Positions 1 through 64,000 of a stretch of 64,000 bases of DNA are shown piece after piece; position 1 is the first letter of the stretch; each line of letters begins with the position of its first letter. The notes beneath the pieces are model-generated. The model was not told the DNA's origin. It ran no database searches and saw only the letters and a program-made list of their open reading frames with translations. Where the stretch lies: assembly GCA_021234155.1 (NCBI GenBank), contig JAJEKV010000003.1:28627166-28691165 (forward strand), written 5' to 3'. The stretch comes from Isoetes taiwanensis. Its lineage: Eukaryota > Streptophyta > Lycopodiopsida > Isoetales > Isoetaceae. A program made the translations under genes and the position numbers.

Positions 1-2150
<2,150 letters not shown>

Positions 2151-2151
2151 T

Positions 2152-3622: not shown

Positions 3623-3714
3623 AGAGAAATATGGTAGAGGTATATAAAATATGAGGTATATTTTCTTAGGAAATTTTCGTATAAGGGATAATTTCTCTTA
3701 ACCCTATGCACGCA

Positions 3715-3722
3715 CATGCCAT
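3715..3722. repeat. Target-site duplication, left (CATGCCAT)
   Basis: The 8 bp immediately left of the hAT-type element's first base. It is identical to 6599-6606. Confidence 0.85.
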
Positions 3723-4020
3723 CAGGGATAGGTTCTGTACGTACGAAATTATTTTTCCAGACGTATAAAGTCCAAAAATACGTATTTTTAGGTTAAATAC
3801 ATATTTTTCGTATTTTTAACCCAAGGAATAGGAAAAAAAAAAATTTTAAACCTTCGATTTTGCTTTTACGCTGAACTTTTTTTCAAGGTAGTTTAAACTG
3901 AAAGGTTTCGCTTACGGGAAAATTCAAAAAAAAAAAAATCCTTTTAGTCTGGAAAACCCAAACCGTTATACTTGAAAAACAAGCATCAATAAGCAGTTCT
4001 TAACACATACAGGTGCATAT

Positions 4021-30421: not shown

Positions 30422-32170
30422 AAAAACATTTGGGCCCTCCGGGCTTTAGTGAATACCTAGGCACTTCAACTGTAGATTTAACACAATAGGCACTTCAACT
30501 TTAGAAGTAACACAACTTCTAAAGAACACCAAGAGTTGCTCATGTCATTTGTTCTATACATCGAAAAAGCAACGAGGCCACCATATAATCAAACCACCAT
30601 ACAAGCAAACATATACTAATAAAAGACAATAGCAAATTAAAAATTTTGAACCAATATAACTGCAACTAGCTTAGTATGTATATCATAAAACAAGGGCAAA
30701 ATTGGTTGCACGAGTGCACATCCAAGAAGTAAACAAATGGATGCTCGCAGAAAATATCGTCTCATAGGCGTACTGCTTTGTCTAAAAAGGATGAAGGCAC
30801 GTGGAATCATTATTTGGATTATGATGGCCAAGCAGTTCTTAATAGCAGAGGGATGAAAGATATGTTGTTGTCTACATACTTATCTTTTTTCTGTCGTATT
30901 GTGTTACTGTGTAATTCTGAAATTTGAAGAGATGTACATAGATGCGATTGATAAATAGGCCAGACGCAACCTATCCAATTCCAGGTATAACGTGCCATCG
31001 TAGATACAACATAGTTTTCACATTGTAGATGCCAATTCGGATGTCAACTTTATGTGCATCAAGCAGTTAAGCTATAGAATAAATCTTTGATTATTTCCCA
31101 ATACAAAAATGCCAATATCTTATGCTAGATATTGATGTTCGCAGGCAATATAAAAGGCCTGCATACAAAAATGCCAAAAGATGTATACAATTAGAAGCAT
31201 AGAAAACACACTAAATTGGAAACAAACAGATTAGCATCTCAAATAAGGATGCGAAGATAATAGCACAAAATACAAAGAGCCATCATAGCATACAGTGCCG
31301 AAGCTGCATGCTTGTGGCAAGGTGATACCAACTGATATAAATCCCATAAATGTTGGAGCTTGGTTCTTTCCTATGGGGTTTGAACCCACATAGCCTCCTA
31401 TCATGTAAGGACGCATGAAAGATAGAAAGCTGCTAGAATTAAGGAATTTAAGGGAGGTAGAACAACAAAGTGTCTACAATCACAAATGCTATTCATATTA
31501 ATAGAACAAACCTGTAAACAATCCTGCTACAGAATAACATGATGTGGTTGCTGCCAAAAATAAGAAGAGAGATTCTTTGTATTCCATGGCTTTCTTAGAA
31601 CAAGGGATGCATGAAAACAAGAATATAGAAATTGTGCTCACATGACACCAAAGAACCCTAAACGAAAGGGGATTTGCAGGCCTAAATTGCTCAGTTGTGC
31701 AGAGGACAGAAATTGCAAAGGCTACATTCGATGCTACAGGTCTGGTCGCAAGATGCCGAAGCAGTCGTTGCCTTGAAGAATTGGTTGCTGTGGTGGCCAC
31801 GCAGGATCCAATGATTCTTGTTCTTCTTTTTATAATAATAGGTCGATGGTTCCCCTGTATCTAGACGTCATCGATGTGCCCCAAAACCAGGCTTCCAAAA
31901 CCAGTTGAACGAGACCGCTGCCCTTGCGGCCAAAAAAACATAGAAGCAAAATCATGGACAATCAAAACCCTAAAATACCATGTTCGATGCTTGCATGTTC
32001 AATTTGGGATAGTTTGTGAACTCCTAGGTGTAACCATTGAAAAATGCCACTAAAAGTGTGATGAGAATATGCGCACTCTAGATGTACCGATTAGTACGTT
32101 TCATGGAATACTGTCATCAAATCATATAAAAATCTTAGGGAATACAAAAACAACCCCCTATTATTGTGCT
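30422..32170. other. Left flank of the MULE, no firm gene
   Basis: A 100-codon minus-strand frame at 31498-31800 starts MATTATNSSRQRLLRHLATR and contains two hydrophobic segments. It could be a first exon but has no recognised family. A GGGGTTTGAACCC stretch at 31,377 resembles a tRNA T-arm or SINE B box without a partner A box. Confidence 0.35.
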
Positions 32171-32179
32171 ATATATTAC
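32171..32179. repeat. MULE target-site duplication, left (ATATATTAC)
   Basis: Nine bases immediately before the element's first G, identical to 41666-41674. Confidence 0.95.
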
Positions 32180-32207
32180 GGGTGAAAATATCCTTACCCT
32201 GGTTTTG

Positions 32208-32580
32208 GTGATTCCATCGCGGTTATTCCCTACCGCGGAATCACAAACCCCCCCCCCCAACGGGATCCGTGCCGGAGGCCCCGTTTTCCGTACCTGACAG
32301 TACGGCAATAAAATCAATACCGTCCCGCGGAATCACAACGGTAGAATACCCCCGGACGGAATCACCATATTCTGATTCCGTTCGATGGAATCACCCAACA
32401 TGCGAATACCGTCCGGCGGAATCACCAAAGTCAGATTCCACCAGACGGAATCACTTCACCCTGACCATTCCTCCCGGCGGAATCACCACAATACGATTCC
32501 TTCGGACGGAATCACCAAGCAAAATCTGATTCCGTCCGGTGGAATCGTCGCCGCGGAATCCACCGGATGGAATCACAAAT
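32208..32580. repeat. Left subterminal array of the MULE 29-bp palindromic unit
   Basis: About ten units of GGAATCACC...GATTCCGTCCGGNGG type. The unit centre (TCCGGCGGA) with flanking GATTCC/GGAATC makes each unit partly palindromic. The outer part matches the right terminus in inverted orientation, whereas the inner part (GCGGAATCGTCGCCGCGG onward) is particular to this side. Confidence 0.9.
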
Positions 32581-32924
32581 CCTTGAAGGGCGATCCGGCC
32601 CGCCGGTGCCGCGTCGGCATCGGGTACCCGTGGATATTTGATATAAAAGCCGTGCCAAATTCGGGGCTCGGCTTTTTGAATTGAATGTCCGACGCGGGTA
32701 TTATTAGCCGCACTGCTGCCAATCGACAAGGAAATGATTGCATGTTCATTGTCCTATCACCGCATGCCACGTCTTCGGCCGAAGATAGTGATCCTCTCAG
32801 AAGGAATCACTACCGATTAGCGTAAAAAGCCTCTCTCACGAGAGCCGTTCGGCCTCCGTTCCTCCCTCGATTCCCTCCGTTCCTCCCTCCATTTCGAATT
32901 CTTGTCCTTTCGTTCATTTGTTGG

Positions 32925-33423
32925 ATGGATCAAAGCCACGGAACCTCGGTTAATGAGAACTTCGAGGCCGAGAATCTTCTGCCAATTCCGCTTTCAAATT
33001 TGCTGCCAACAATCCGTTTTGTCGGAAGAGCTGGTCGATGGGAGGTGGACTCCCCTCCTAAATTTCCTCGAGGTTTTGAGCGGTTGGAGCCGGGTGAGAT
33101 GGCGAGATCTTGCATCTGTCTTGGTAGCTTGCTAGTCGGCGGCGAATTATTCCGTGTCTTTGGAAGGGGGAGCCGTCGGTAAGTAAAGAAAAGAATGAGT
33201 GCAAGGATGCAAAGGAAAAAGTTCAACACCAGGAGCCCGAAGATTTTGGAGAGGATGCCGTGGAGAACCCTCCCGAGGATAACTTTGAGGATACATGGAT
33301 CTTTGAAATCGAAAAGCGGAAATTGGATCGGGCGGATGGCGGTGGTATTGTTTATTCGGTGGTTGTAGTACTTGATTACTCCAAAAATGGGATCTGGAGA
33401 TCCACAGACTCGCTAAGCATTCC
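32925..33423 (+). CDS. Possible 5' exon(s) of the Ulp1-like gene
   Basis: The ATG at 32925 opens a frame (MDQSHGTSVNENFEAENLLP) to a strong donor-like CGGTAAGT at about 33,179. In another frame, 33,187-33,422 encodes an acidic stretch (EPEDFGEDAVENPPEDNFED, then TWIFEIEKRKLDRADGGG) that runs up to the ATG at 33424 and overlaps it by four bases (CCATGACG). The acidic protein-like reading suggests the real gene starts here and that a splice or a one-base consensus error links the parts. Confidence 0.4.
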
Positions 33424-35309
33424 ATGACGAATGATTACAAGCTGCCGCCATTGGCAAGAGGCCGGAAACCATTTGCTCCAGAAATGAGCAGAAGGAAGAG
33501 GAACTTTGAATTGGTGAAGCTGGAGCGGAGCGCGGATGAAGATTATCTGTGGCAGCATAATCTTAGGCGGATTTTGGTGAGGGCAAAGCGCAGGGCTGAG
33601 GCTATGGCAGAGGACCAGATTGAGCACGGACTTCTTAATCCTGCTATGAGGTCTGCTTGGGTCAATCAACAGGTGGAGATAAGGCGGACGGTAGAGGAAA
33701 CTTTGGAGGAGCAGAAGAGGGAAGCAATTAGAAAAAAAATCGCCACCAGGTTTGGTTTGACAGTTGAAGAGATGAAGGCCGAGATTTCATATTCCAGAGA
33801 GCAAGCTCAGGTAGAGAATGATGATTTTAGCAAGGAACTCGCACAGGCCCAAGGAGATCTTGCATCCCCCCCTCCCAGGAAAGTGTGCAAGCTCCCACTC
33901 AGGAGCTCCCCGAAAACTCCAAGGAAGAAGAGGGCAGCAAAAAAAACAGAGGAGTATCTTGCCCCTAACCATATAGTGTTTGAAACCTCCAGCTACATTG
34001 AAGGTTTGCGTGAGGCAATTCATTCAGCAGGACTCCCCGATCCCAGAGCTCCATCGGAAGAGGAGGGCACTTTAATTGAGATCCCCATGATGCATAGGCT
34101 GGAAGCCAGCTTTTTTAATTCAGTGTTCTCTTATCAATCAGGTCTTCTTTCCGGGAGGTGGACCTGTAACTTTACATTTAAATACCCACTGACACTAAGC
34201 AGCACAGCCATTCGAGTGGGCAAGAAATCATCAGCAGCAGAATTTCGTGTGTATGGCAACTTCGCCCAAGATTTCATGACAGTTCCCGGTCCTGGTGATG
34301 ATGTGGATTGCAGAATCAATGAAGAATGTGTTGGTGCCTATCTACTGTAAGTCAGTCTTATAAGCACTACCCGAGCATCACAAGGCTTTGATTCGCTGAC
34401 TATGTGGTCTCTGCAGGGCCTTGATACATTCCATTCCCCAAAACAGAAGATCACAGCATGTTTTCGTGCATCCTGCGGCCTTTGGGCTTTTTCTGCAGAA
34501 CAGTTTGGAAGGTCAATCCGGTTCATATGATCTGTTTGCTAAATTAATCCCACCGAAACCGTTCATCAGGCAGAATTGGCGGATGCAGAATGTCGGGTTC
34601 TATTACTTCCCAGTCATGAGCAGGTAAAGAATCCGTTTTAAATCCATTCATGGGCAATTGAACCTTAATTCCGGTTTTGCAATTGTTTGCAGCAATCACT
34701 GGAGCTTGTTCATATTGGTTTTGAGATTGATGCATGCCACAGGCTCCAGACTCCGTGTCCAGTGTTGCTCCATTTGGATTCAATGTCGGGCATGCACTCG
34801 AGCTTGCACTGTTTCGCCACATTGTAAGTTAAAATTATGCCCCTTTCAGGTCAATTTTTGGGTTTCTCTCATTCCTTTGGCCCCAGATTTGTTTCCGACG
34901 TTATGAAGAGGTGGAGTTTTGAGTCGTCCAGATTGCACAATGCCTGCTGCGTCTCTCTGAAGGTCCCTCAGCAGGAAAACACCCAGGATTGCGGAATTTA
35001 CACCATCTGTTTCGTGAAGTGGTTCTTGCAGGATATCTGCAACACCAAAGAGCAATCTGTGGGTATTTATATGTGTCCAATTTTATCTAGTCTATTCGAA
35101 CTTCGTGCTAATTTTCCCAGTTGCAGGTTGTCGATGCTTCCAAATGGTTTGGGCGTGCTGAGATCGACCAGACGAGGTCCTCATTTGCAGTGATGTTACA
35201 AAAACTGGGAGACTGTGTGCAGCAAAGAAGAACCACCTTCCACTTGCCTGAGGGAGATTGGAGTGAAAACGGTGGCCCCATGACCCGTTTAAGGGTGCAT
35301 GGGCCTTGA
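33424..35309 (+). CDS. Ulp1/C48-family SUMO-protease-like gene of the MULE
   Basis: Five exons with GT-AG introns and consistent phases: 33424-34346, 34417-34623, 34693-34823, 34887-35058 and 35127-35309. The N-terminal about 170 residues are Lys/Arg/Glu-rich and probably coiled-coil (VEEMKAEISYSREQAQVEND), with a basic PRKKRAAKKTEE patch that may be a nuclear signal. The C-terminal protease domain shows the catalytic His in SNHWSLFIL (34697-34699), the Asp in LLHLDSMSG (34777-34779), the oxyanion Gln in VPQQENTQDCG and the nucleophile Cys at 34990-34992. His and Asp are not in the same frame: about one base is gained or lost between 34,710 and 34,760, a CAG-rich stretch. Expected role by family is removal or processing of SUMO-like modifiers. 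Why MULEs carry it is unknown. Confidence 0.85.
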
Positions 35310-35383
35310 ATTTTTATTATGTATGTGAGAAACTGTGAATATAACAGCAAAAATACCAGCATTCTTTGGGTTTAATCGACTTA

Positions 35384-35681
35384 GGAATGTTTTGGACTTT
35401 GAACTCATTTGAATTTGAATTTGAAAGTAATTTAGCGAATCTGCTTTTGAAATTTTTGAGCGTGAATATTCGAATATGCCGTCCATTCAAAAATAGAGAA
35501 CTATTTGTCCGGCAATGGTCGCATTATTTGTGGGGTAGGTGATTCGAATGTTTTGGACTTTGAACTCATTTGAATTTGAATTTGAAAGTAATTTAGCGAA
35601 TCTGTTTTGAAATTTTTGAGCGTGAATATTGAATATGCCGTCCATTCAAAAATAGAGAACTATTTGTCGGCAATGGTAGGT
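35384..35681. repeat. 162-bp tandem duplication inside the MULE
   Basis: Two copies starting GAATGTTTTGGACTTTGAAC (35384 and 35546) and ending near TTTGTC(C)GGCAATGG. Copies differ by single bases at CTGCTTTT/CTGTTTT, ATTCGAAT/ATTGAAT and GTCCGG/GTCGG. Lies just after the protease stop codon. Confidence 0.85.
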
Positions 35682-35693
35682 GAGTGTGGGTAG

Positions 35694-35772
35694 GTGATTC
35701 CATCCGGTGGGTGATTCTCGGCGGGTGATTCTATCCGGTGGAATCACAAGCTGGTGATTCCATCCAATGGAA
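35694..35772. repeat. Internal cluster of MULE 29-bp-type units
   Basis: Three to four GTGATTCCATCCGGTGG-like units far from either terminus, with another at 35,938-35,962. Their internal position suggests that the interior is composite: an older element end may lie here, after the protease gene. Confidence 0.75.
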
Positions 35773-36479
35773 TGCCCGCCCCCATCATTGCATGCCGTAG
35801 GCATTAATTGCTTGGTCACGTCAAAGGACTGCCACTCGGACGGACGTTTAAGCGGCGTGACGCAAGGGGAATGAAAGCGGCGCCACCTCGTGGGCTACAG
35901 CGGCCGGACAATTTAGGGCGAAATCTAGGCCCATAGGGGTGATTCCACGGACCCGGAATCATGCGCCGCCCGCCCGGACCGGCGCCATCCTCTTCGTATT
36001 GAATCATAATTCCTAGGCATGCGTTCTGTGGCGCCCGATCTTCCCGTCGGCTTGCTTCCCGACCATCGCCGCTAGCTTCCAGCATATCATCATCAGGTCC
36101 GGCAACCTCCGCGGCTCTATAAATCGGTAAGAATCATGTTCGCCTGTAAAACCAAACGATGGATGTTCTTACGATTTGTAGCTGAGTTCCAGGCATGGCG
36201 GACTGCCCCCCACTAGCCGTGTCGGCGGCGTCGTCAGTGGACCTCGGTTTTCTTGGCTCAAGGATTGCAGGCTTGAGAGTGCAGCGGCGGCGTCTCGAGT
36301 CGCGTGCGGTAGAGGTCGCCAATTTTCTGTCGCCATACCGCCGGGGCAGCGGTTGTGAGTGCATAAGGATTCTGTGAAGGTCTCAACGTTTCACACATCC
36401 CGGGCGCGAGGCGCTTGATGGGGAGTGGGCAAAGAATCTGTTTACCTACATTCCATGGCTGAAGTCGGCGTCATACGCA

Positions 36480-36610
36480 AAGTGTGGTACGCAAAGTTTA
36501 CGGTGGTTCAAAGCGGCGAAGGAGTGTGGTCGCAAAGATTACGGTGGTTCAGGCGAGTGAAGGAGTGTGCCTGCAAAGATTACGGTGGTTCTAAGCGGCG
36601 AAGGAGGAGT
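36480..36610. repeat. Three-fold ~46-bp tandem repeat in the MULE
   Basis: The phrase GCAAAG(T/A)TTACGGTGGTTC, followed by (A)AGCGGCGAAGGAGTGTG, is repeated three times with small changes. No gene assigned to 35.8-37.0 kb. A 60-codon plus-strand frame at 36195-36377 is GC-rich but unrecognised. Confidence 0.8.
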
Positions 36611-37064
36611 GCAAGGGCGAGCGGATAGCGATGATTTTGTGTTCCCGGTTACTGCTGCGAGACCCAAGTTCTGGGAAGGTTAAGCGGTCTACCGGAAAAG
36701 TCGACTTGATGGTACGCTATTAGTTTGATGTTCTTTACAAAGCTGTTGGAACTAACTCCTTTGCTTGAACCCAGCAGACAAAACGAGCCCGCCCGATTCT
36801 GATTGCATAGCTGGCGATGATTCATGAAGGAGGGCGTCCCTTTTTTTTCGTTAACACACGATCTATGAATGTGGAGGAAGTCTGAATCCCTCTTGACTTT
36901 TGAGTTCCTGGTAGCTACCTTGCCTAAGGGCTTCTTTTGATAATATAAATCTAAGTTGCTTGATGTTCAATCTGTTCAGTTAGCTTCAAATTGCAACCAC
37001 ATACAACCTCTCCATGCATACAAACATTTTTTTTTTCACGATACATGCATTGCCAAGGTGGGTG

Positions 37065-37980
37065 TATGGTGATTCCATGTGTAAATACTCCATGTATAAA
37101 TACACACCATGTATAAAGACTCCATGTATAAATACACCATGTATAAATACACCATGTATAAATACTCCATGTATAAATACACCATGTACAAATACTCCAT
37201 GTATAAATACTCCAAGTGTAAATACTCCATGTATAAATACTAGATGTTCAAATACACCATGTATAAATACTCCATGTATAAATACTAGATGTACAAATAC
37301 ACCATGTATAAATACTCCATGTATAAATACTAGATGTATAAATACTACATGTATAAATACACCATGTATAAATACTCCATGTATAAATACTCCATGTATA
37401 AATACAAGATGTATAAATACTCCATGTATAAATACTAGATGTACAAATACACCATGTATAAATACTCCATGTATAAATACTAGATGTATAAATACTACAT
37501 GTATAAATACACCATGTATAAATACTCCATGTATAAATACTCCATGTATAAATACCAGATGTATAAATACTCCATGTATAAATACTAGATGTATAAATAC
37601 TACATGTATAAATACTAGATGTATAAATACTACATGTATAAATACAACATGTATGAATACTCCATGTATAAATACCAGATGTATAAATACTCCATGTATA
37701 AATACTAGATGTATAAATACTCCATGTTTAAATACTAGATGTATAAATACTCCATGTATAAATACACCATGTATAAATACTCCATGTATAAATACTAGAT
37801 ATATAAATACTCCATGTATAAATACTCCATGTATAAGTAATCCATGTATGGTGACTTGGCACTAGATGTATAAATACACCATGTATAAATACTCCATGTG
37901 TATGGTGACTTGGCACATGGGATTGGAGTGTATGGTGACTTGGCACATGGGATTGAAGTGTGTATGGAGTATTTATACAT
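37065..37980. repeat. 15-bp minisatellite (ATGTATAAATACTCC), about 52 units
   Basis: Near-perfect 15-bp units ATGTATAAATAC followed by TCC, ACC, TAG or similar, from about 37,080 to 37,855. A decayed tail contains GGTGACTTGGCACATGGGAT three times. There is a higher-order 150-bp (ten-unit) repeat: the AGATGTACAAATACACC phrase at 37,287 recurs at 37,437. Because 15 is a multiple of 3, long Cys-Ile-Asn-Thr-Pro frames arise; these are artefacts. Each unit contains a TATA-box-like TATAAATA. The array lies between the 3' ends of the convergent protease and transposase genes. Confidence 0.95.
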
Positions 37981-38031
37981 CGAGTACTATTTCATGGAGT
38001 AGTCAGGGTTATACATAGAGTATTAATACAT

Positions 38032-40260
38032 CTAGACAAGGTTTTCCATTTCATATTCCTTCCAACTAACTTTCCTTTTCTTTGCTTCCTTCTTCCCTAT
38101 TTCCAAGAGTGGTTTCACCCTAGCAAGACTCGTGCCATAGGCCTCCTCTTCCCTCAAAACTGGCAGAGATGTTATGGTTGTGTCATTGGCCTCCTCCTCA
38201 TTCATCCTTTCGAGTCTTGTGTCAAGCTGTCTCATCATCACTTCGGTGGCTATGAGGAGGGTGGGATCCTTTGAGGCCCGCTCCATAACCCTAGCAACAC
38301 AAGACTCCAAAGATGCCCTAGCATCTTCCACTCTCAAGCCAACTCTTGGGGTTGGTTTAATATCATCTTGTAGACTAGTTATGTCCACCTCGGCCCCTTC
38401 AAGGATATTGGCATGGGTGTTACCAGATCTACATGGGCGCAAGAGCTCCATGCCACCAGATGCATTTCCATGTTGGGACCCTAGAACTTGAAGGAGATCT
38501 TGATCCCTGTACCTATCCATCATTTGGATAACCTTCACTTGGTGTTTGCAAATGTTCCCCTTGGCGCCCCATGGGCAATCACAACTCGCCCAATTCTTAT
38601 TTGCCCCATTGACAAAGTAGGGTTGGCGGTTCAAATCGAGAGTTTGGACATAGGCCTCTCCTCCATCGAGGTCCACGAATGTGACTGCATCATCGGGAAT
38701 TTGCCTAGCCCCGCGAATAGCCGACTCTATAATTTGCTCTTGTGATGTGTTTATCACAAAACCAGCTTCCTTCAACCCCCTGTCAGCAAGCAAATGATAC
38801 AATATGGAGGGTTAGTGCATACATGAAGCAAATTTTAGTCACTTCCAGTAATTACCTAGAGTATGCCATGTGGGTCTCCACATCATGGACAAGCATGTGA
38901 AGTAGCCAATCTATCATACGCCCTTTAAGCTGGGACTTGGAAATCCCGAGGCGCAATTTTAGTGCCTTGTGCGAAGCCTCTATTGCAGCATTGGTTTCTT
39001 GATTGGAATGGGGAAACATTCTTGTGGCCAGGACCCAATCACAAATGTTGCGAGTCCACTCTTGACTCATGTAGGCCGCCAACTTTGGATATTGTGGGTA
39101 CTTTCTCTTTAATGCTTCCAACTTCCTCGAAGCCTCTTCTCTAACAGCCTGTATGTAATCATCCCCATACTCATTGTTACCTGGGGGACACTTTGTTCCA
39201 TACATGATCTCGCCCAACTCCTTGAACATTTGGTTCCTCAAATCTTTATTCTTCACGTTCTTTGTCAACCACTTCAACCAATCTCTCCTCACGTGCCAGA
39301 TGCAAAGGTTGACACGTACGGCAGGGAAAACCTATGGTGGAGGTGGAAAGTTGACACATGGGTTAGTATGGAACCAAATAAGCTAGAATGAAAATGAGGA
39401 AAACTAGCAAACAATGTTACCTTCTTTATCGCCTCTTTGTACTTAAACGTCCACAAGAATCGGTGATAAAACATGAGGGCTTCAAGTGTCGCCGTGATGT
39501 TCAATCCACACTTTCATAGCTTCCAACCATCTAGCTATTGTCTCTTTCTTTTGGGTATTCGTGATTATCCAAGCCAGTGGCAGCCCATTGAAGTGGTCAT
39601 CGAATCCAATGAGAGTGAAGAGGTAATACCTATGTAAATAGAAACACGCTTTAGCAAACCTAATTTCCAAGAAACCTAAAAAAGAGCAACCAAACCTCTT
39701 CTCGTTTGTCTTGTAGGTGGAGTCAAGGCATATAGCTCTATCCTTTCCGAATCTCACCATGGCATCCCTTTGAATGGGAGTCATGACCCCAAGTTGAAAG
39801 ATGTCACCTTGTTCGTAGTGGAAGACACAATCTTGGTGTTGTTGGACCCACATGTTGATGCTTGTTGCTTGGTCTTCATGCAACTTCCATACATTTCGAG
39901 CCACCAATTTATCAATATTGTAGACATCATGCATCTTCAACATGTCGTCCCTACACAACCCCTCCAAACCAACCAGTTCTTTCTTCAAGTTCACCCTCTC
40001 CTGGTGGATGTTCATCACCATTCTAGGTGTTATATAGTGCACTAGCTTCTGTTTGATCCATTCTTTCTTTTCAGGCGAGAGCCACGGTGCTAGCCTATAC
40101 CTCAACCCTTTCTCAATAGGTTGTGCTTTACCATGGCAGATTGCACCTTGCTTGTTCACATGATCCCATTTGTGATAGGTAATTTGAGTGCAATTGGGAA
40201 GAAGATAGAGCTGTTTCAAAGTAAAATGACATTGGCAACCCCTTCTAACACTCTCCCTCT
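38032..40260 (-). CDS. MULE transposase with SWIM zinc finger
   Basis: Minus-strand gene with GT-AG introns and matching phases: exon from about 40,260 to 39,696, then 39,629-39,421, 39,331-38,856 and 38,779-38,032. The N-terminal part has a Cys/His cluster (GCQCHFTL...CTQITYHKWDH...CHGK). The MULE domain follows: first catalytic Asp in ICLDSTYKTNEKR, joined across intron 1 to YYLFTLIGFDDHFNGLPLAW; the family Cys-His block in FPAVRVNLCIWHVRRDW; and a Glu in ETNAAIEASHKALK. Exon 4 carries a SWIM finger CDCPWGAKGNICKH (CxCx8CxH) and a charged tail. Exon 2 needs frame changes between HHGDT and KYKEAIKKV (about 39,430-39,485); a shifted frame there reads FITDS, the likely second Asp. More exons may lie upstream to about 40,500. 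Family role: binds element ends and performs cut-and-paste transposition. Confidence 0.9.
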
Positions 40261-41037
40261 CTCAATCCTCTTCCTTCTTTGGCCTCGAGGGGGCGCCGAT
40301 CCTCAACAACATGAGTGTTCTCGGGAGAATTGTCTTCTTCGGCCCAAAGACACACGGTACCTTTGTTGCACAGGGAATGAATCAGACAAGCTTTAAAATC
40401 CAAATAAATTATCACAAGCTAGGGAAAGGAAATTCACACCTCTTCAAAGTCAAATATGAACCTTTGCCCGGTTTGGATAGCTCTTTATTTCTTTGAGAGC
40501 TTCTTATGTAGAAACCGCATGGTGCTTCCCCTTTTTTGCTCCCAGGCTATGAAATCCCCAACCCGTGAGGTGGGAATGTGGCACACCCAAACCGGTTGAG
40601 TACCTCCTCCTTACGGGTTCGGGACTACGGTGCTCTAACATAACCCGAGGGCCGATCATTTGTGATCAAAATGCCCTTCTGCGGTCTGTTTGCCAAATGC
40701 CCGCATTTTGTCAATAAAAAAATGCTATCGAGCTTGCCCATTTGCAAGGACATGCAAATCAGTTGTTTCGGGCACTAACCTCCTCGATCCTCTCGTCCAA
40801 ATCCATCCCGAAGCTCCCGATGTCAGTCCCTAGAGCAGAGGAATGCAGGTGAATCCCTCGGATGAATAGAGGAGGTGATTCCATCGCATGGTACACAAAA
40901 GGGTGCGGGGGATGCACGTTTTTTAAATTCCGGCGAGTTGGACTCACGACGACACCACGGCCGTCGATCTGGTCCATGAATGCGGTCTTGATGTTGCGAC
41001 GTGTCGAACATGCATTCGTTTGGAGAATTCCACCTGG

Positions 41038-41540
41038 GTGATTCCATCCGGTGGATTCACGGCGACGTGATTCCACCGGACGGAATCTGATGGAAGTGAA
41101 GTGATTCCGTCTGGTGGAATCTGACTTTGGTGATTCCGCCGGACGGTATTCGCATGTTGGGTGATTCCATCGAACGGAATCAGAATATGGTGATTCCGTC
41201 CGGGGGAATTGCAAGGTGGTGATTCCGTGCCGTGGGATCCCTGGCGGGTGATTCCATCCGGCGGTATTACGACGTCGTGATTCCATCGCGTGGAATAATT
41301 CCGTGGTGATTCCGTCCGACGGTATTCCCTGGGCGTGATTCCTTCGGGTGGAATCCTCACGTGGTGATTCCATCCGGCGGTATTGCAACGCCGTGATTCC
41401 ATCGCGTGGAATAATTCCGTGGTGATTCCGTCCGACGGTATTCCGTCGTCGTGATTCCTTCGCGAGGTATAAATACGTTGTGATTCCATCCGGCGGTATT
41501 CTACCGTTGTGATTCCGCGGGACGGTATTGATTTTATTGC
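41038..41540. repeat. Right subterminal array of the MULE 29-bp unit
   Basis: About 17 head-to-tail units, each starting TGATTCC and containing CCGGNGG(A/T)AT, with a regular 29-bp spacing. Alternating unit types (one starting TGATTCCATCGCGTGGAATA, the next TGATTCCGTCCGACGGTATT) recur, indicating expansion by multi-unit steps. The array is about 200 bp longer than the left one. Confidence 0.93.
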
Positions 41541-41665
41541 CGTACTGTCAGGTACGGAAAACGGGGCCTCCGGCACGGATCCCGTTGGGGGGGGGGGTTT
41601 GTGATTCCGCGGTAGGGAATAACCGCGATGGAATCACCAAAACCAGGGTAAGGATATTTTCACCC

Positions 41666-41674
41666 ATATATTAC
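41666..41674. repeat. MULE target-site duplication, right (ATATATTAC)
   Basis: Nine bases immediately after the element's last C, identical to 32171-32179. Confidence 0.95.
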
Positions 41675-42747
41675 ATTGGTATTCTATTTTGTAAATTTGT
41701 AAAAGATTAAACGCAGGACAATTTGTATTTTACTTCAAATATATCAAATCTAACTCCATGCTAAGTCTCTAGGGTGTTCATTACCTAAGTCGCTAAAGAT
41801 TTTAGTTATTACTAAATAGCAATAAAGAACCTAGTTACAAACTTACTTCTTGAATACCACTAAATAACAATTAAAAAAAGTAGTTTCAAACTTACTTCTT
41901 CAATATGCAGACTATTTTGCTGGTTCATGTGCTTATGCGTTTCTTTCCAATAAAATAAATCGCCTTGGACCCTTTTCACGGTTTGCAAAAGCTCTTGACC
42001 TCTACCTCTAGAGCCTGTGGAAGTCATGCACATAGAATCTGCCAAACTTTTAGATACATCTATAGAACCCATCGATGCAGAATCGACAAAGGGGTGGTGT
42101 CATATCCTGGGAATGGCAATGGCGTCTGATGGGCAATATGTGTGATCGTCCTCATGGTTCGTCACTGTTCCTAATCCCTTAGAATATGATCAAGCCTTGG
42201 GTTCAACCTCCTTGCAAGCTGGATAGTACCAGCTGCATCCTGCATCCACCCATCAATCTCTTCCTCCATATCCCCTATCGCTTTGTAGATTTCTGAGTGT
42301 CTGCATTGCAAACATTAAACAAGTCCTACAAAATCTCACCCGTCTACATTTGAATTAAACGTGTCAACATATGCAAAATAAAAAATCAAGAAACTTGACA
42401 CTAATTATTCAAGAAAAAAATATTAACTTTTGACATCAAATTAACGAACCTTGTAGCCAATAACAAGAAGATCGTCCCTTTTCCACGAATTTTATTGTAT
42501 AACTATAGTTGGTTTCCCACGTCAAACTTAATAAATACAAATTGCTAGTCAATAATAAATAAAAATTGCTACCAGAGAACTTACTAACTTAAAGTTCTTT
42601 CACCCAAAATATATCCTTTCAAGACTGCCACTATATGGGACCCATACAATGGGCTAGTACAATCATTACTACTAGGATTAAAAAACCCCTTGCCTCGAAA
42701 GGTTTTCAAGTGAAAAACACCTATTAACGTTGGAGCTGTTAGGAACT
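41675..42747. other. Right flank of the MULE, no firm gene
   Basis: A 70-codon minus-strand frame (41860-42072), together with a short acidic frame near 42,180-42,300 (EIYKAIGDMEEEIDGWMQDA), is protein-like but broken and unrecognised. It could be the remains of a transposon gene that the MULE entered or landed beside. Confidence 0.35.
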
Positions 42748-48230: not shown

Positions 48231-48593
48231 TCCTCCTACTTTACTTGAGGATCATATTGCAGGTATGGAGGATGAGAATGAAGACATCATTGCGGAAGAA
48301 GTAGTACCCTTGGTGATTGAGGTAGAAGGCATTGGTATGGCACATATGGGTTTTTTTTTTTTTTTTTTTTTTTTTTTTCATGGGGGAAGGCATAAATAGT
48401 GGTGGAGTGTTTTTCTTGATATTGATGGGAATGATGGCACTCTAGAGCAAGAAGATCAAGATTTATATGTAAACCTAGAAGAATGTCAGGAAATATCCTT
48501 TTCAATATGTTTTTTCAAATATTAATGCTTTGACAATGATTGTTGGCTCAACATTTATATTGAAGTGGATGTAGGGGTGAGATTTAGGATTCA

Positions 48594-51220
48594 AGGTGTC
48601 TGGAGAGCTAGATCTATTTATCCTACTTTCAATGTTGGAGTCATTTCACTTATTCCTAAGACTGAAGCTCCTTCTAAAACTAATGAATGGCGCCCTATCT
48701 CTTTGACCACCACCTTATACAAGCTGGTGGCTAAAATAATTGCTGGTAGAATTGTGGTCCATCTTCATAGCAAGATAAATGCTTGCCAATCTGCTTTCCT
48801 TCCTAGCAGATCCATTCTAGACAACTACATAGCTGCAAATGAGGCTTTGCATTGGAACAGATTGAGCAAACAAAACTGTATCCTTCTCAAGTTGGACTTT
48901 AAAAGAGCCTATGACTGTATCTCATGGAAATTCCTTGAGAAGGCTCTTGCCCACATTGGCATTCATCCTGCCCTAATTGAGCTAATAATGGGGTTAAACC
49001 AAAAAGCCACATCCTGTGTTACTGTCAATGGTACTCCCACTGGCTTTTTTCCCATTCAAAGGGGGGTGAGGCAGGGGTGCCCCCTAGCACCCTACCTCTT
49101 CATAATTGCAGCTGAAATTCTTACCAAGATGGTCCTCTCTTATCAAGATAAGGGTCTGCTCCAAGGGCTTCAAATGCCTGATTCTAATAAGCGACTCTCG
49201 ATCCTCCAATATCTTCGATGATACCTTCACTATGCTCCGAAATGATAATAATAATATGAGCAATTTTATGGAATTTGTATCTCCAAGTTTAGTTTCTTAC
49301 GAATTCATCCGAATTATAACAAATGCTCTATTCTAGCTGATGGCTCTTATTCGATCTCAACACTCATGGTATCAAGTTTGTCCCCAATGGGCATTATTTG
49401 ACCCTCCTAGGGCTCCCCTTTGTCGTACATATGTCTCATAAGATTGCATGGCAGCCTCTCATTAACGGGATTAGGAAAAACTTCTCCTCCTTAAAGGTTC
49501 CTTGTCTCTGGTGGGAGAATCTTGATAGCCAATTACGTCGCCCTTGCTTGATCATGTTTATTTTTCTTCTTTCGATTGTGACAAAGCCTCTTATAGTAAG
49601 ATTGAGCGGTGCATTAAAGAATACATTTGGCAAGGTACTCATCATGCACTTTGGGACCGGTGACACATAGTAAAAAAGGAGGATTGGGATGTAAGTCCCT
49701 GTTCCTTGTGCCCAAGTTCTTGGGGCTAAAAATGTTTGGAAAGCCATCTCGGGTTTCCAATCTCCTGCTATGGAATTTATCGATTACGGCTTAATAAGAG
49801 CAAACCCTTAGGAAGCCCCTCTGTTAAACATCGACTTCGGACTTCGGCTTTTTATAATTTTCAATGTGCAGCCAATACTTCCCCTCTTCTCAGAAGTATC
49901 TTTAAAGCCTGGGAAAAGGTAGCTGCTATATTTACTCATGACAAACTCTCAAATTCTGTGAGGGATACTTCCATTTTCTGGTCACCTGTGATGGCCCCTT
50001 CATCCTCCCTAGCCATGGCTATAAGCCATCCGACCTGCTACAAAAATGGCATCTTTGCTAATATTCTTCATGTCGAGATCTTATTGATGATGAGGAAAAA
50101 CTGGATTCCTTGGGAAGTGATTAAAAAAGAAAGTGGGAGGGAGTGCTACCCATAGGTCTATTTACAAGAAAGTTGTCCACATCTACTCCCCCTTCTTAGG
50201 CAAAGATGGTAATGGGGAAAGTCATTCACCCCTGAACTGGTTCTTCAAAATCAAGAGGAGCTATAAAGTTTCTAAGATTTATCATGCATGTCTTCCTCAA
50301 AAAAAGTAAAAAGCATGCCTCTCCAAGGCCTTTCTCCCAAGAACTTTAAGAAAATTCTTCAATCGGTTGGAAATCCTATGCCCGCCCCAAGATTAAAGTT
50401 TTTCTTGGCTCATTCTCCATAATGCTATTTTGAGCAATACTAACATGGTCAAGAGAAAGTTCAAGTCTGTTAATAATGCTTCCTGCCAGCTCTGTAATAC
50501 TCATGATGAATCAGTGCTACACATTTTCACTTGCCAAAGGATTCAGGACTTTTGGAGATGGTTGACTTCGATGCGGTTTTAAAATCCCGACCTTGATTAC
50601 GTTTCTAGTATTTCCCAATTCTTCCAGCTCCAGCTGGATAATTTGGAAACATAGAAATAATGTGGCTCTGGCAAACAGGAAATGTGACCTTAACTGGATG
50701 AAGCTTAATTTTCAATTTGAACTTATCAGATGTGCCATGGCTCATAAGGCTCTAAAATTAGAAAAGTTTGACTTGGATTGGCTGAATTGGGGATCCTTCA
50801 AGTCTAACTTTTTTACTGTTCATGTGGATTCTCTCATTGACTTGAATGCATTTGTGGACTGCAGCTTTCTTGAACAGTGTGGTCCAGGTTTTTAGGAGGA
50901 CAATTCTCCCGGACGATGTACCCACTCACCATTCGGGGACTCCTAGGCAGGCTGTAAGGGCTACTTTTCGGCTAAAATTTCTGCTCAAGGAAGCCTACAA
51001 CGCTCATATTTTACACAAGTTTATTGGAGCTCATAATCGTCTTCTGACAGAAAGACAATTTTCATGCTTAAGGTCCATGTATTATTATCACAAAGGCAGA
51101 TGTGAAGCTGCAGCTGGTGTTTTGCTGGATATCATTCAGGTCCCCATTGATGAGCTCATTCTCGCTGACCCCCTCCACGGGCTGAGATCAATTGGCTTGC
51201 CCCCCCTTGTTTTTCATTGA
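48594..51220 (+). pseudogene. LINE ORF2 remnant: reverse transcriptase and zinc knuckle
   Basis: 48,594-49,221 encodes RT blocks: GVISLIPKTE, NEWRPISLTTTLYKLVAKII, QSAFLPSRSILDN, LLKLDFKRAYDCISWKF (first catalytic Asp) and RGVRQGCPLAPYLF. The frame then breaks at about 49,212 (CTTCGATGAT), exactly at the F-A-D-D motif; the DDTFTML continuation is in the next frame. Further on, 50,480-50,560 carries the C-terminal knuckle CQLCNTHDESVLHIFTCQ. A C-terminal frame of 124 codons (50846-51220) resembles nothing I recognise. Many other stops and shifts; no endonuclease domain. Confidence 0.88.
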
Positions 51221-59344: not shown

Positions 59345-62300
59345 TTACTGCTGATTTCCATATACCTCTAGGACCCAATTAATATCATATTGGGCTTGCT
59401 TGATGATGGCGTGAGGCCAGATAATTTCCTCCTTAAAGATTAAGGAGTTTCTACCCTTCCACATTCTCCACATGAGAATATATCTTCTCCATTCAATAGG
59501 GTTTTCAGGGAAGAAGAATTCTGTGATATGCATATTAGAAAGGCCTGGAATGTTCAGTTCAGATTCAGCCAGCTCCAAAACCCATTCTGCCCATAGGCAC
59601 TCTTTAAATAGATGTGCTTCATCTTCTTGATCCTGCAAGCATCTAACACAGATATCAGAGTTAGACATATTAAGCCTCCATCTCTTACTGTTTGTGGCAA
59701 GGGCTTTATGCCAAAGTTGCCACATAAAAGCTTTGATTTTCGGATGAATTGGGCTCTTCCACATAAAAGTCAGGTTTTTGAGTACCCTGTCAGGGTCAAT
59801 GTTCCATTTCGAGTGAATGGAAACTTCTTGGTTTCTATTGAGGTACCTGTAGGCCAAGCTGACTTTATAACCACAAAAACCATTAATATGCCAAAAAACA
59901 TTAGTATCATGCCATTCTCCATAAGCCAATCTTTGGGTGATACTATTGAAAAGCTGCCTGGAGTCATCTCCTAGATCTGCAAGATTGGAATCTTGGTAAA
60001 CAAAATCATCAATAATATCACTTATGTAGACAACTCCCCTTTGAGTCCATTGCTTGGCTAACTTAGGAAAGTTAGTGGCAAGACAAATGTTAGGGTCATC
60101 CAGAATCAGAGAGGGGCTCCAAAAAATAGGTTGGTCCTGTGAAAGTCCTTCTTTCCAAGTATACATTCCTCTTACCTTTAACCATGCTCTAATCCACTTC
60201 TTAATAATCAAGGGCATGGTGGTAGGGATAGTAAAGTCAAAGTAGATACTATGAGGAAGCTGCATATTAAGATTTCTCCAGCCAAAGGGGTGGCACTTCT
60301 TAATGTAATAGGAGATGAGAGTACTCACAGGGTGATTAATCTGGTTGTTGCAAGCCCTGAAGAAATATTTTGCAGCCAAAGCAGTGGCCTGCTTCTCAAT
60401 GTTTATGACCCCCAGACCTCCAATTCTTTTGTGCTTGCAGCATTCTTCCATGGAAATAGGAATCCAGCATCTTCTGCTAGATCCACCTGCTATAAACCTT
60501 CCAATGATGCTTTGCATTTTTGTCAAGACTTTCTTTGGGGCCATAATGATGGAGGACTGATAAACCTGAGAGGAAGAGATAACCGAGTTTGCCAGAATGG
60601 CTCTCCCATTTTTGGATAGAAACTTGGAATTAAGGGAGTCTACTTTTTTGTAAAATTTATCAATTAAATCCTCCCAAAGATCACAAGCATTAACTCTTAT
60701 AGCAAAGGGGATGCCTAGAATTTTAGTTTTAGTATTAGGGGAGAGATACATACAACCCAGTCTTGCTGCTGCAAGCTCACCCTCCACTTGATGCCTAGAA
60801 ATTAGCTTGGTCTTGACAGGATTGATTCTGCAACCCAAGCACTTGCCAAAGTCTTCCAGAATAGCTAGAGTGTTCTGGATGGATTGGTCTTCCAAATGTA
60901 GAAATAAAAACGTGTCATCTGCAAAGTGGACATTAAGAATCTCACCATCCTCCTGAGAGGGAAGCCTGAGACCCTTGATTAGGTGAAGATCCTTTACTCT
61001 TTTAAGGTTGCTATTTAATCCTTCCATCACAATAAAAAAAAGGAAAGGTGCAAGTGGGCATCCCTGTTTGACCCCCCTTTTGATATCAAAAAAAGGGCTA
61101 CATTCACCATTAATGAGAACAGCAGATCTGGAATTTTTAAGGATGGCTTGGAAAATTGAGATTATCTCCTCAGAGAATCCAAGTTTCCTACAGCACCAGC
61201 AAAGAAAACCCCAACTTACAGTATCAAAAGCTTTTGTGATGTCCAACTTGAGGAGGCCAATTGACTGGTTGGAATCTTTGGCCCAGGAGATACCCAAAGA
61301 TGCAGCAGCAACATTGTCAAGAATATACCTTCCTCTTAGATAAGCACTGAGTGTTACTGATGACTTCCTCTAGGATAGGTTTGAGACGAGTAGCCATGGT
61401 ACCTGAAATTAACTTATACACCACATTGGTCAGAGATATTGGTCTGTAATCAGAGAAAGTAATAGGGAGCTCAATCTTCGGGATAAGAGCAACTAAACTT
61501 GTGTTGGTCCTGCTGTCCAGCTGCTTGGTGATCAGGAATTCATTGGCCAGAGAGACAATATCCATGCCCAATATGTCCCAAGACTTCTTGAAGAACTCAG
61601 CTGGGAGGCCATCAGGGCCTGGGTCTTGCCATTCTCCATCTCCTGCAGAACCTTCAACATTTCCCCCCAAGTAAAAGGCCTAGAAAGAGTGTCATTCATA
61701 TACTCAGTAACTTTCTGCTGGATATGCACAAATTCTTCAATATCTTCTCTTCTTATATTTTCCTCAGTTCCCATGATCCTGGAGAAATGAGTTTTGGCAG
61801 CACCTTTGAGCTGTGTGTCATTATCAATACTGTTACCTTCCCACAGAATGTTATAGATATGATTTCTTTTCACTCTGCCCTTAGCCTTGATGAAGAAATA
61901 CTTTGAATTACTTCTCTCGTCTTCCTTTAGCTCCTTCACCTTTGCTTTGATCTTCCAACCCCTAGCAATTCTTATTTCTTCTCTTTCGATTAGGATCTTG
62001 ATCTCATCTTTTTGTTGTCCATTAGCCAAATCTAGCTGGGATCTGAGGTCCTGCAGATGGGCAGTATTACTTCTATGGACCTCTTTCCCCCAAATCTTGA
62101 GCCAATTCTTGATTCTCTTGGAGACCCTAACCCACCAATCCATCCAACCCCTGTTACCCATAGGCTTAACCTCCTGAGAGATAATCTGCTGAAGGTTATG
62201 CATAAAGTCATCCTGATCCAAAAGATTAGTGTTTAATTTGAAATAAGAATTCCTCTTTCTCTGAGGACTGTTACCACAAATGCTTATAAGCTGGGGGAAA

Positions 62301-62995
62301 TGGTCAGAAAGAGTGTAGTTGGTGACGTTTGTGACCCTAGTGCTGTTGTTCCAAAGGGATTCACTAAGATAGAATCTGTCATGGAGGCAGCAAACAGGCT
62401 GAGCTCTGTGATCACTCCAACTATAGGAATGAGGATTAACTCTGGCCAAAGAGAGGTGGTGAGAATATAGGAGAGAGTTCCAACTTGAGAATTCATTGTC
62501 AGTCAAAGGTCTGAAGTTGGTGCTCCTCATATAGCTATGAGTAACCATACTGAAGTCACCTGCTAAAATGCAATCATCATAAGGAATTCTCTCTAGACTT
62601 CTATTAATAACATCCCAAAGGCCAATTCTATCAGGGGGCTGGTGGTAGGCATAAACATTAATAAAGGCAATTCTTCTCTCTCCAACTTTTCCATGGATAA
62701 TCTGCAATCTCCTACTATTGTCATTAACCATCTGAATATCATCCATGTTGAGTCTGTTATTCCAAGCTATGGTTATACCTGCAGAAGTGTTGTTAGCTTT
62801 GAGAGACCAATGCTGAAAGTTAACAGGCAGAACATCTCTGATTACATAGTTAATATTATCATCATGAATTTTATGCTCTTGGAAAAAAATAAAATCTAAA
62901 TTCATAGAACTTAGACAAACCTTTAATCTACCTCTCTTGATATTCAAATTGATGCCTTGGATATTCCAAGTGATGCCTTTAAGACTTAAATCCAT
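59345..62995 (-). CDS. LINE ORF2: endonuclease, reverse transcriptase, zinc knuckle
   Basis: ATG at 62995. The APE-type endonuclease shows ITWNIQGIN, FFQEHKI, the LAGDFSM block and LSDHFPQL with the terminal catalytic His. The reverse transcriptase shows GPDGLPAEFFKKSW, LVALIPK, FSDYRPISLTNVVYKLISG, LLKLDITKAFDTVSWGF, RGVKQGCPLAPFLFF and the catalytic FADDTFLF. The C-terminal zf-RVT is CVRCLQDQEDEAHLFKECLW. Total about 1,216 codons, normal for plant L1. Only two frame breaks were seen: about 61,618-61,625 (one base missing in CCCAGG, minus strand) and about 61,346-61,352 (two bases missing in CTCAGTGC). Both are in CAG contexts and may be consensus errors, so the real ORF could be intact and the element potentially active. 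Confidence 0.92.
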
Positions 62996-64000
62996 TAGAG
63001 AGGGTCTTTCTTGGGGATCTTCTTAGAGGTCCCATGGTAAAATCTTTAGGGCTTTTCTTCCCTCTTTTTCTTCTGCTGTTGACTGTTGACCAAGTCACAT
63101 CTTCCAAATTGGAAGTCTTATTAATGACCTGTAGATCAAAGTCGTCCTCTGAGTCTTCCTTCCTGATTTCCTCACAAGAACCAAAGTTGTCATTTAAAAT
63201 ACCAAGATCCAGAGTCGAGATGCTCATATTAATAGGGTCTTTGCTGATGATACAATCGGCCTTGTTGATGTGATTATTCTCCATGGTCTTGGATTTTGGT
63301 CTCCAGACCTGCCTGCCATGATTTGTTTCCACCTCTTTTTGCATCTTTGTCTCCTTATTTTCTTTAGGAGGAGAGAACTTAGCCAGAGGCATCTTAGAGT
63401 AGGAAATGTTAAGATTAAATATGCCTCTGTTGGGGATTTTGCATGGGATGCAGTCCTCCCAGTTAGAATAGATCTTTTTCTGAATACAAACAGAGGGGAA
63501 ACTGGTCTGAGGGATTGAGATCTGAATGATCTCCCCTAAGCTACTAGCAATGGTTCTAAGATGGGAGACAGTCCAGCAACCCATAAGCAAATTTGTGTAG
63601 GAGATCCAAGTGGTAGTAGCAATTGTAGAGAAATCCCCTGGAATATAGAAAGGATCCCATTTCATAATGTAGACTGGATATCCTGAGATTATAGAGATCT
63701 TTCTGATGAGAATTTGAGGGACACTCTTCTCTTCTTTACAAATAATTTGAAAAGTCTTATTGTCCAGCTTGAGGATAGAAAGAATAAGAACTAGAAGAGT
63801 TTTGGTAATCCAGTATTTCACAATGCTTAAGGAAGGGCAATTTTGGGGGAAATGGACAAGAATTCCATGATTGGTATATCTGACCTTGGCCGAGTTATCA
63901 GTAATGTTACACAGGTCAAGAATGTCCTCATCTTTATTGGTAACTTTTTCTAAATTCCCTGGATCAGTGGCAACATTAACAGAATTCAAAGAATTGAGTA
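62979..64000 (-). CDS. LINE ORF1 with DUF4283-like region (5' end outside window)
   Basis: Open from the window edge to TAA at 62979-62981. The middle part (ISGYPVYIMKWDPFYIPGDF, TTTWISYTNL, LRTIASSLGEIIQISI) matches the DUF4283 arrangement typical of plant L1 ORF1 proteins. The C-terminal third is highly charged, with a basic patch (NSRRKRGKKSPKDF, RRSPRKTL) suited to RNA binding. No CCHC knuckle is obvious. The ORF2 start codon lies inside the last codons of ORF1 in another frame (17-nt overlap). Confidence 0.8.
   Translation of the reverse strand, partial: LNSLNSVNVATDPGNLEKVTNKDEDILDLCNITDNSAKVRYTNHGILVHFPQNCPSLSIVKYWITKTLLVLILSILKLDNKTFQIICKEEKSVPQILIRKISIISGYPVYIMKWDPFYIPGDFSTIATTTWISYTNLLMGCWTVSHLRTIASSLGEIIQISIPQTSFPSVCIQKKIYSNWEDCIPCKIPNRGIFNLNISYSKMPLAKFSPPKENKETKMQKEVETNHGRQVWRPKSKTMENNHINKADCIISKDPINMSISTLDLGILNDNFGSCEEIRKEDSEDDFDLQVINKTSNLEDVTWSTVNSRRKRGKKSPKDFTMGPLRRSPRKTLSNGFKS

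Follow-up and report, generated by a model that had tools for sequence, protein, structure and literature searches.

Mutator-like elements (MULEs) that carry a Ulp1-type protease domain together with a MULE transposase are known in melon, rice and Arabidopsis (van Leeuwen 2007, as cited in PMC2528002) and in grapevine, and as far as the sections of that literature used here go, both relative gene orientations occur and members bearing terminal inverted repeats (TIRs) are found in melon (PMC2528002). The KAONASHI elements of Arabidopsis (KI-MULE/KIU), present at high copy number, have the Ulp1 gene reversed relative to the transposase and are described as non-TIR. VANDAL elements encoding the anti-silencing protein VANC place an extra gene beside the transposase, carry a short motif in noncoding tandem arrays, and have degenerate TIRs (PMC5735166, PMC10398659). 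Foldback-type elements such as Muta1 (Aedes), Tm1 (Meloidogyne) and FARE (Arabidopsis, as cited) have long TIRs consisting partly of short tandem repeats with units of 9–15 bp, flanked by target duplications of 8–9 bp, and a Ulp1 gene is unmentioned in the excerpts at hand. The precise function of Ulp1 in plant transposons was still listed as unknown in the part of a 2026 review that deals with it (PMC13317346).

The element described here spans 9486 bp, at positions 32180–41665 of a 64-kb stretch of DNA (the window, to which all coordinates refer). Its place in the genome assembly is C1034:28659345–28668830. Its terminus, GGGTGAAAATATCC..., starts at 32180 and the reverse complement of this sequence ends at 41665, immediately flanked on both sides by the 9-bp target-site duplication ATATATTAC (32171–32179 and 41666–41674), the two copies of which match perfectly and are the only ones on either strand of the 64 kb. 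The outermost 171 bp of the two ends (32180–32350, + strand, and 41495–41665, − strand) are identical at 171 of 171 positions, a longer alignment reaches 218 nt at 94% identity, and inward of the 171 bp both ends pass into tandem arrays. The inverted-repeat termini and perfect flanking duplication reported in the initial annotation are thus confirmed. These long TIRs with arrays beyond them, a duplication within the 8–10 bp range and a SWIM zinc finger in the transposase together place the element in the Mutator superfamily. A LINE with a zf-RVT and DUF4283 match was also detected.

The left terminal array (32329–32516, − strand) is built of a near-palindromic unit of ~29 bp and holds seven registered GGAATCAC octamers, positioned from 32329 to 32508 at steps of 29, 29, 31, 29, 32 and 29 bp, and the right array (41101–41516, + strand) has a near-palindromic 29-bp unit with 15 copies of the mirror octamer GTGATTCC from 41101 to 41509, 13 of the 14 steps being 29 bp and one 31 bp. 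A small inner array with the same octamer lies downstream of the protease gene (35675–35773). Octamers of either form number 36 inside the element versus three in the remaining 54.5 kb of the window; none of the 36 lies in a listed exon of either gene, and their number differs from copy to copy of the element. An element-encoded protein probably binds the 29-bp palindromic units, which occur near the genes as well as at the two ends. Between the convergent gene ends lies a 15-bp minisatellite, TCCATGTATAAATAC, with 54.5 copies (37074–37899), almost devoid of CG and CHG in the six sister copies in which its span could be cleanly measured.

Likened by description alone, the Ulp1-MULEs of melon, rice, Arabidopsis and grapevine share with this element the pairing of MULE transposase and Ulp1 domain, and the premise that such MULEs are known in plants agrees with the literature. 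The gene orientation is that of KAONASHI, but because of the 171-bp TIRs the element is not filed as a KI-MULE. It is not filed as a VANDAL for the same reason, despite an extra gene beside the transposase and tandem motif arrays in noncoding DNA; the VANDAL motifs are different, and the likeness is one of arrangement. The unequal number of units (7 versus 15) and variable octamer counts among copies resemble foldback-type TIRs, with a comparable target duplication but a unit of 29 bp. Identity as a Pack-MULE was rejected, since a transposase is present. The combination of features had been singled out as special; tandem-repeat TIRs (PMC5225508, PMC3169594), reversed Ulp1 (PMC2528002) and motif arrays (PMC5735166) are each on record for MULEs in the portions of these reports consulted.

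The transposase gene (38065–40261, − strand) was delineated by open reading frames, Pfam, motifs and splice sites, with likely exons bounded by GT/AG sites at 40261–39696, 39629–39421, 39331–38856 and 38805–38065. The SWIM domain (PF04434) within 38032–38811 (−) scores 21.3 bits, above the cut-off of 19.6, in line with the SWIM transposase initially proposed, and its CxC...CxH motif is located at 38542–38583. The MULE domain (PF10551; 39482–40261, −) scores 18.3 bits, below the cut-off of 27.6, over a reading frame split by an intron and a break. Likely catalytic codons, placed by motif only, are D at 39722–39724, D at 39459–39461 and E at 38996–38998. Such a transposase would recognise the element ends and move the element through a 9-bp staggered cut.

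On the opposite strand, the Ulp1/C48 protease gene (32925–35309, +), supported by open reading frames, a Pfam C48 match and distant PDB relatives, has likely GT/AG-bounded exons at 32925–33178, ~33200–34346 (start approximate), 34417–34623, 34693–34823, 34887–35058 and 35127–35309. The GT/AG sites make nine exons plausible. Peptidase_C48 (PF02902) is matched at 25.8 bits (cut-off 20.7) in 34828–35193 (+), within the window copy's own exon, and at 36.3 bits on the joined exons of sister copy L009; the long N-terminal part has no Pfam match above cut-off. The likely catalytic residues, located by motif within 34697–34992, are H (34697–34699), D (34777–34779), C (34990–34992) and, six residues before the latter, a Q (34972–34974) that we take to be the catalytic glutamine and whose placement agrees with an alignment to SENP7. 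Domain and residues together bear out the claimed Ulp1-type protease. The same H...D...QC layout characterises the C48 cysteine proteases of known structure SENP7, SENP8 and Ulp2 (E-values 0.0009 to 0.027), which are very distant host enzymes; substrate specificity is not inferable from them.

The two genes face each other within the window element, and the convergent orientation originally noted recurs, among the matches listed, in 50 of 50 cases with both genes at most 15 kb apart; the lists cover scores for 150 of the 740 candidates for the protease and 147 of the 1902 for the transposase. In the same set 94 of 144 protease places have no listed transposase partner; as the lists are part of all candidates, solo genes are not countable from them. 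In 15 loci of diverged relatives, counted by eye where the alignment covers the residue, H is retained in 9/10, D in 13/14, Q in 13/15 and C in 14/15, the losses being H and D in L045, C in L036 and Q in L031 and L042. The dN/dS comparison suggested in the initial annotation yielded values well short of 1, 0.12–0.22 for the protease in 10 of 11 computable comparisons (L042 giving 0.43; 15 comparisons, all against the single copy L009, four of them saturated), and 0.22, 0.26 and 0.34 in three comparisons of the transposase exon with L009. Because the catalytic residues are mostly kept and dN/dS is low, the protease is, judged from its sequence, an integral and conserved second gene of the element and not a stray fragment.

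Of twenty loci retrieved from the 1.66-Gb genome to which the window belongs, 13 proved to be further copies matching over both gene regions, at 87.9–95.7% overall identity to the window copy, the remaining seven being partial; the expected sister copies of like structure therefore exist. For copy number there is a lower bound: 40 of the 1095 candidates yield at least 96 TIR matches. In the fetched sequence both ends are present for 17 further elements (two rows that matched ends of separate elements were dropped); the duplication is a perfect 9/9 in ten, 8/9 in one, 7/9 in one and absent in three, and in L026 and L009 it is, by eye, out of register. As to empty sites, also called for in the initial annotation, related repeats L046, L047 and L048 agree with the element ends and run 18, 10 and 8 bases past the insertion point without any element part, but nothing longer is aligned there, and this evidence is modest because most of the 41 flank matches end within a few bases of that point. 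In several other copies one end is ~98% identical to the window copy's TIR and the other ~87%, with garbled stretches, and TIR identity was set aside as a clock for them. For the window copy itself, identical 171-bp ends, a perfect duplication and sister copies that differ little outside CG/CHG sites uphold the claim of recent insertion.

As assembled, the protease frame breaks between H and D, near 34722, and the transposase frame around its second D (39445–39482) and upstream near 40254. Nine exon segments were tested in 14 aligned copies, the window copy among them, and in no copy are all nine open; the longer segments are all broken in several copies. Differences between copies concentrate at and beside CG/CHG sites. 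Away from these, all copies but one differ by 0.4–1.6%, the window copy differing from 12 of the 13 others at 10–25 of ~2,120 sites and from the thirteenth, L023, at 113 of 2,098. Differences centred on CG/CHG in this way are what miscalled bases at methylated DNA would look like. The pattern was absent from unrelated tandem duplications of the window, which have too few CG/CHG sites to decide the matter (in the 501–2000 duplication 1/37 sites inside CG/CHG differ versus 36/1,292 far ones, in a 387-bp repeat 2/22 versus 6/311), and a regional pattern of errors mirroring methylation over genes and arrays was looked for and none was seen. The spliced proteins are not readable letter for letter from the assembled DNA. 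Since the frames break as assembled in at least three places, but the differences resemble base-calling errors in a suspect assembly, the description of the gene pair as largely intact is neither upheld nor refuted; an autonomous, perhaps active, family is not borne out by the window copy, and present activity may be a property of the family.

The element is most probably real and, with its gene pair, part of a young two-gene TIR-MULE family, of which the window element would be one copy from a recent spread. It might instead be a dead relic with genuine frame breaks, its movement having relied on another source copy. This somewhat doubtful reading draws on the breaks themselves, in particular those at 39482 and 40254, which are single-base and less clearly linked to CG/CHG, the latter falling in a run of C and being common to L010 and L015; against it, most differences between copies follow the CG/CHG-centred pattern, and garbled stretches of this type contain the breaks near 34722 and 39445. 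Were the differences genuine, the outcome of prolonged deamination and repair at methylated cytosines, the family would be old. Transitions are indeed common at CG (29–86% of substitutions there are C>T/G>A, depending on the copy), the window's unrelated duplications differ away from CG/CHG too, and among four comparisons of non-autonomous relatives there is one in which transversions do not become less frequent with distance from these sites. Great age is nevertheless quite improbable, as neighbouring A/T bases also change (13.7% beside CG/CHG versus 0.4% at ≥12 nt), at ≥11 nt transversions are down to 0.06% and deletions to 0.7%, from 6.1% and 3.4% inside CG/CHG, a garbled end of one copy can coexist with a clean other end and with the same end clean in sisters, and the window copy's ends are identical.

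With a young two-gene family as the preferred reading, the role of the protease can be considered. Plant-transposon Ulp1 domains have been described as transduplicated (in the parts of PMC2528002 and PMC13317346 that bear on this), and together with the frame breaks this could make the region a passenger, a captured host protease fragment carried unused; low dN/dS, residues mostly retained across diverged families and convergence in all 50 pairs, which span a broad range of identity, render this very unlikely. The protease would most likely serve, at slightly under an even chance and with only its fold family to suggest a substrate, to detach SUMO or a related modifier from the transposase or from host proteins of silencing or repair, which would let the element be expressed or inserted; it would thereby help the element, probably against SUMO-dependent silencing. 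The terminal arrays may be unrelated to the protease, serving as transposase binding sites only or arising as by-products of replication slippage. The case for this is evenly balanced: 10 of 12 Aedes MULE families with long TIRs have tandem repeats in subterminal position, and Ulp1 goes without mention for them in the excerpt at hand (PMC5225508), and the two ends have unequal unit numbers, but the octamer is also found in noncoding sequence next to the genes and is missing from the exons listed, a placement resembling, without proving kinship to, the VANC target motifs described in part in PMC5735166. In a further, rather unlikely scenario the element is a TIR-bearing counterpart of VANC/KIU, in which the Ulp1 protein would bind the 29-bp arrays, perhaps via its long N-terminal part, and strip SUMO from silencing proteins there.

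If true, that scenario would amount to a sequence-guided, protease-based anti-silencing factor that many families within a single genome keep alongside the transposase. In the assembly, neither the divergence between copies of this MULE family nor calls of 'pseudogene' in it are trustworthy at face value. The family has many young, nearly identical copies and a protease that is under constraint and consistently paired with the transposase in convergent orientation, and the function of the protease is therefore directly testable in this family, which bears on why plant transposons so often carry a Ulp1 protease.

The borders of this 9486-bp MULE stand at window positions 32180 and 41665 as the initial annotation placed them, with the same nine bases, ATATATTAC, adjoining both and found nowhere else in the 64-kb window, so that the perfect 9-bp duplication it had claimed holds; so do the inverted-repeat termini, the outermost 171 bases being identical in inverted orientation. 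Inward of these repeats, both ends carry arrays of a ~29-bp unit (15 registered positions at the right end, 7 at the left), a near-palindrome in which the octamer GTGATTCC is opposed, around a short centre, by its complement GGAATCAC or a slightly altered form. There are 36 occurrences of the octamer within the element vs 3 in the other 54.5 kb of the window, and none of the 36 falls in the listed exons (3836 of 9486 bases), an absence to which no probability should be attached, since tandem copies are not independent. The inner part of the left array (window 32328–32459) has 95% complementarity with a segment of the right array (window 41096–41227) that lies farther from its end than its left counterpart, an offset that would represent contraction of one array or expansion of the other.

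The proposed search for further copies, made in the 1.66-Gb, 1110-contig genome that the window comes from, was productive. The left end gave at least 96 matches (best 40 of 1095 candidates scored), and 13 of 20 fetched loci match over both gene regions (L009, L010, L011, L013, L014, L015, L016, L018, L021, L023, L024, L026, and L027, whose protease-side end falls outside the fetched stretch). The remaining seven are partial: L012 is internally deleted (4.2 kb), L017 and L022 cease to match after the protease half, L025 is interrupted by ~7.6 kb of other sequence and extends beyond its stretch, and L019, L020 and L028 have family ends enclosing an unrelated interior of ~2 kb. These last ~2.4-kb elements (L019:101–2437, L020:7397–9894, L028:7542–9904) have their interior in common at 88–94% identity and appear to form a non-autonomous subfamily. 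A perfect 9/9 target duplication flanks 10 of the 17 elements with both ends available; it is imperfect in L015 (8/9) and L016 (7/9), out of register by eye in L026 and L009, and was sought but not found in L012, L024 and L028. L020 also contains a member of a related family (2269–4707) with TIRs ~80% alike and a perfect 9-bp duplication, in whose array of 28–33 bp units GTGATTCC is kept while the rest of the unit has changed. On contig C1030 of the window's own genome, three same-strand transposase matches spaced by ~7 kb (7609168, 7615963 and 7623227, the third within L023) are possibly neighbouring or tandem copies.

Both flanks (window 31980–32179 and 41675–41874) are dispersed repeats. 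When they were fused without the element around a single ATATATTAC and searched against the genome, at least 41 matches were obtained (best 40 of 2158 candidates scored), most of them to the left flank and ending no more than a few bases from the junction, where the flanking repeat itself could end. Four places with the furthest reach or best match were read, and no stretch of the element was found in any of them; L046, L047 and L048 align for 18, 10 and 8 bases beyond the junction, and L049 matches the right flank. All four places are paralogues (81–86% identical) rather than alleles; in this empty-site check they are consistent with the borders without proving them. Elsewhere in the window lie a direct duplication of ~1.5 kb with abundant AGATTC-type short repeats (501–3481), a LINE-type retroelement on the minus strand (59348–63998; reverse transcriptase, zf-RVT and DUF4283 matches) and a second, plus-strand reverse-transcriptase fragment (48526–49218).

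Overall pairwise identity among the 14 aligned copies (this one and the 13 loci) is 83.5–95.8%, which taken at face value would imply an old family. The differences, however, cluster at CG and CHG positions, where, depending on the copy and the context, 3–22% of bases differ, vs 1–7% elsewhere. Methylation causes C-to-T changes; this type makes up only part of those at CG/CHG. Where an A or T adjoins CG or CHG, 13.7% of cells differ, in a count that includes the biased CHG middle base, vs 0.0–0.4% at least 10 bases away. In a second count, with the middle base taken as inside, transversions fall from 6.1% within CG/CHG to 0.06% at distances of at least 11 bases and deletions from 3.4% to 0.7%, over 12 of the 14 rows (L023 and L027 dropped) and with a site counted as CG/CHG if any of the 12 copies had it, so that garbled letters may create sites and sharpen the contrast. 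The three non-autonomous relatives show the transversion gradient in three of four comparisons, L019 vs L028 read from L019 showing none. Clustered differences including transversions and deletions are seen, for example, in L018, L021 and L015 against window 32180–41665, and a single copy can have one end garbled and the other clean. This pattern is likely base-calling error at methylated cytosines, which would inflate divergence and break frames in the assembly. Methylation-linked errors of this type, together with the polishing they require, are mentioned in the available text of PMC7501810 (plants) and PMC8442456 (bacteria), the latter describing its own bacterial genomes, in that text, as without such errors. 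When the comparison is limited to positions at least 8 bases away from CG/CHG, 12 of the 13 other copies show 10–25 differences from this one over ~2,120 sites, and within the set formed by this copy and those 12 any pair shows 8–34, L023 standing apart (113 of 2,098). With so few differences, the family is young. Together with the identical ends and perfect duplication these low counts also favour the recent insertion originally claimed.

The gene assignments were upheld: a plus-strand protease and minus-strand transposase lie tail to tail, with a 15-bp minisatellite between their ends. L023, an older relative, has a diverged minisatellite mid-element (4711–5138, ATGTATAACC and ATGTACAAATA units), so a satellite in the spacer may be older than the young family. 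The Ulp1-type protease matches Pfam C48 on this copy's own exon (36.3 bits on the joined exons of L009), with SENP7, SENP8 and Ulp2 as distant PDB relatives; the transposase has a SWIM match above cut-off and a Pfam MULE domain below it, its frame here being interrupted. As assembled, this copy has eight of nine exon segments open, plus a phase shift between protease H and D, and none of the 14 is open across all nine (a 139-bp segment says little, every copy having some open frame there). In L009, transposase D, D and E lie within one continuous frame, and protease H and D share one. Given the base-calling pattern, open or broken frames in any copy are not decisive for intactness.

Among the matches listed, 144 protease places (150 minus 6 second pieces) and 147 transposase places (of 154 matches, 3 second pieces dropped) yield 50 protease places that have a transposase no more than 15 kb away (distances 0.5–12.6 kb, one transposase being the partner of two places), all 50 convergent; the other 94 lack a listed partner, a subset that cannot show solo genes. 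Across 15 loci of relatives, counted by eye where the best alignment covers the residue, protease H is kept in 9/10 and D in 13/14 (exception L045 for both), Q in 13/15 (L031, L042) and C in 14/15 (L036). The suggested dN/dS test gave 0.12–0.22 in 10 of 11 computable protease comparisons (15 loci, 4 saturated; non-independent, as L009 is common to all) and 0.43 for L042, and, in three comparisons, 0.22, 0.26 and 0.34 for this copy's transposase exon. As base-calling errors should raise dN/dS, constraint on both genes would, if anything, be understated.

According to the accessible portions of the sources, Ulp1-carrying MULEs of either orientation, some with TIRs and some without, are known in melon, rice, Arabidopsis and grapevine (PMC2528002); MULE TIRs made of tandem repeats are also known (PMC5225508, PMC3169594). 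No description of this family was found in the literature searched by feature, subscription papers lying mostly outside it. By its superfamily membership, the transposase would bind the element ends and insert the element at a 9-bp staggered cut. The reading favoured for the protease, at slightly under even chances, is a SUMO-removing helper acting against silencing or for insertion, the chief alternative being that it processes the transposase or other proteins. VANC proteins of VANDAL elements are described, in the text available, as binding short tandem-array motifs in noncoding DNA, with removal of methylation (PMC5735166, PMC10398659), and VANC genes with a Ulp1 domain are reported (PMC13317346, likewise in part). 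This element too combines tandem motif arrays in noncoding DNA with a Ulp1 gene, a likeness which suggests, as a lead, that its Ulp1 protein may be an array-guided, protease-based anti-silencing factor in a MULE family that we judge young and useful, and not new in kind.
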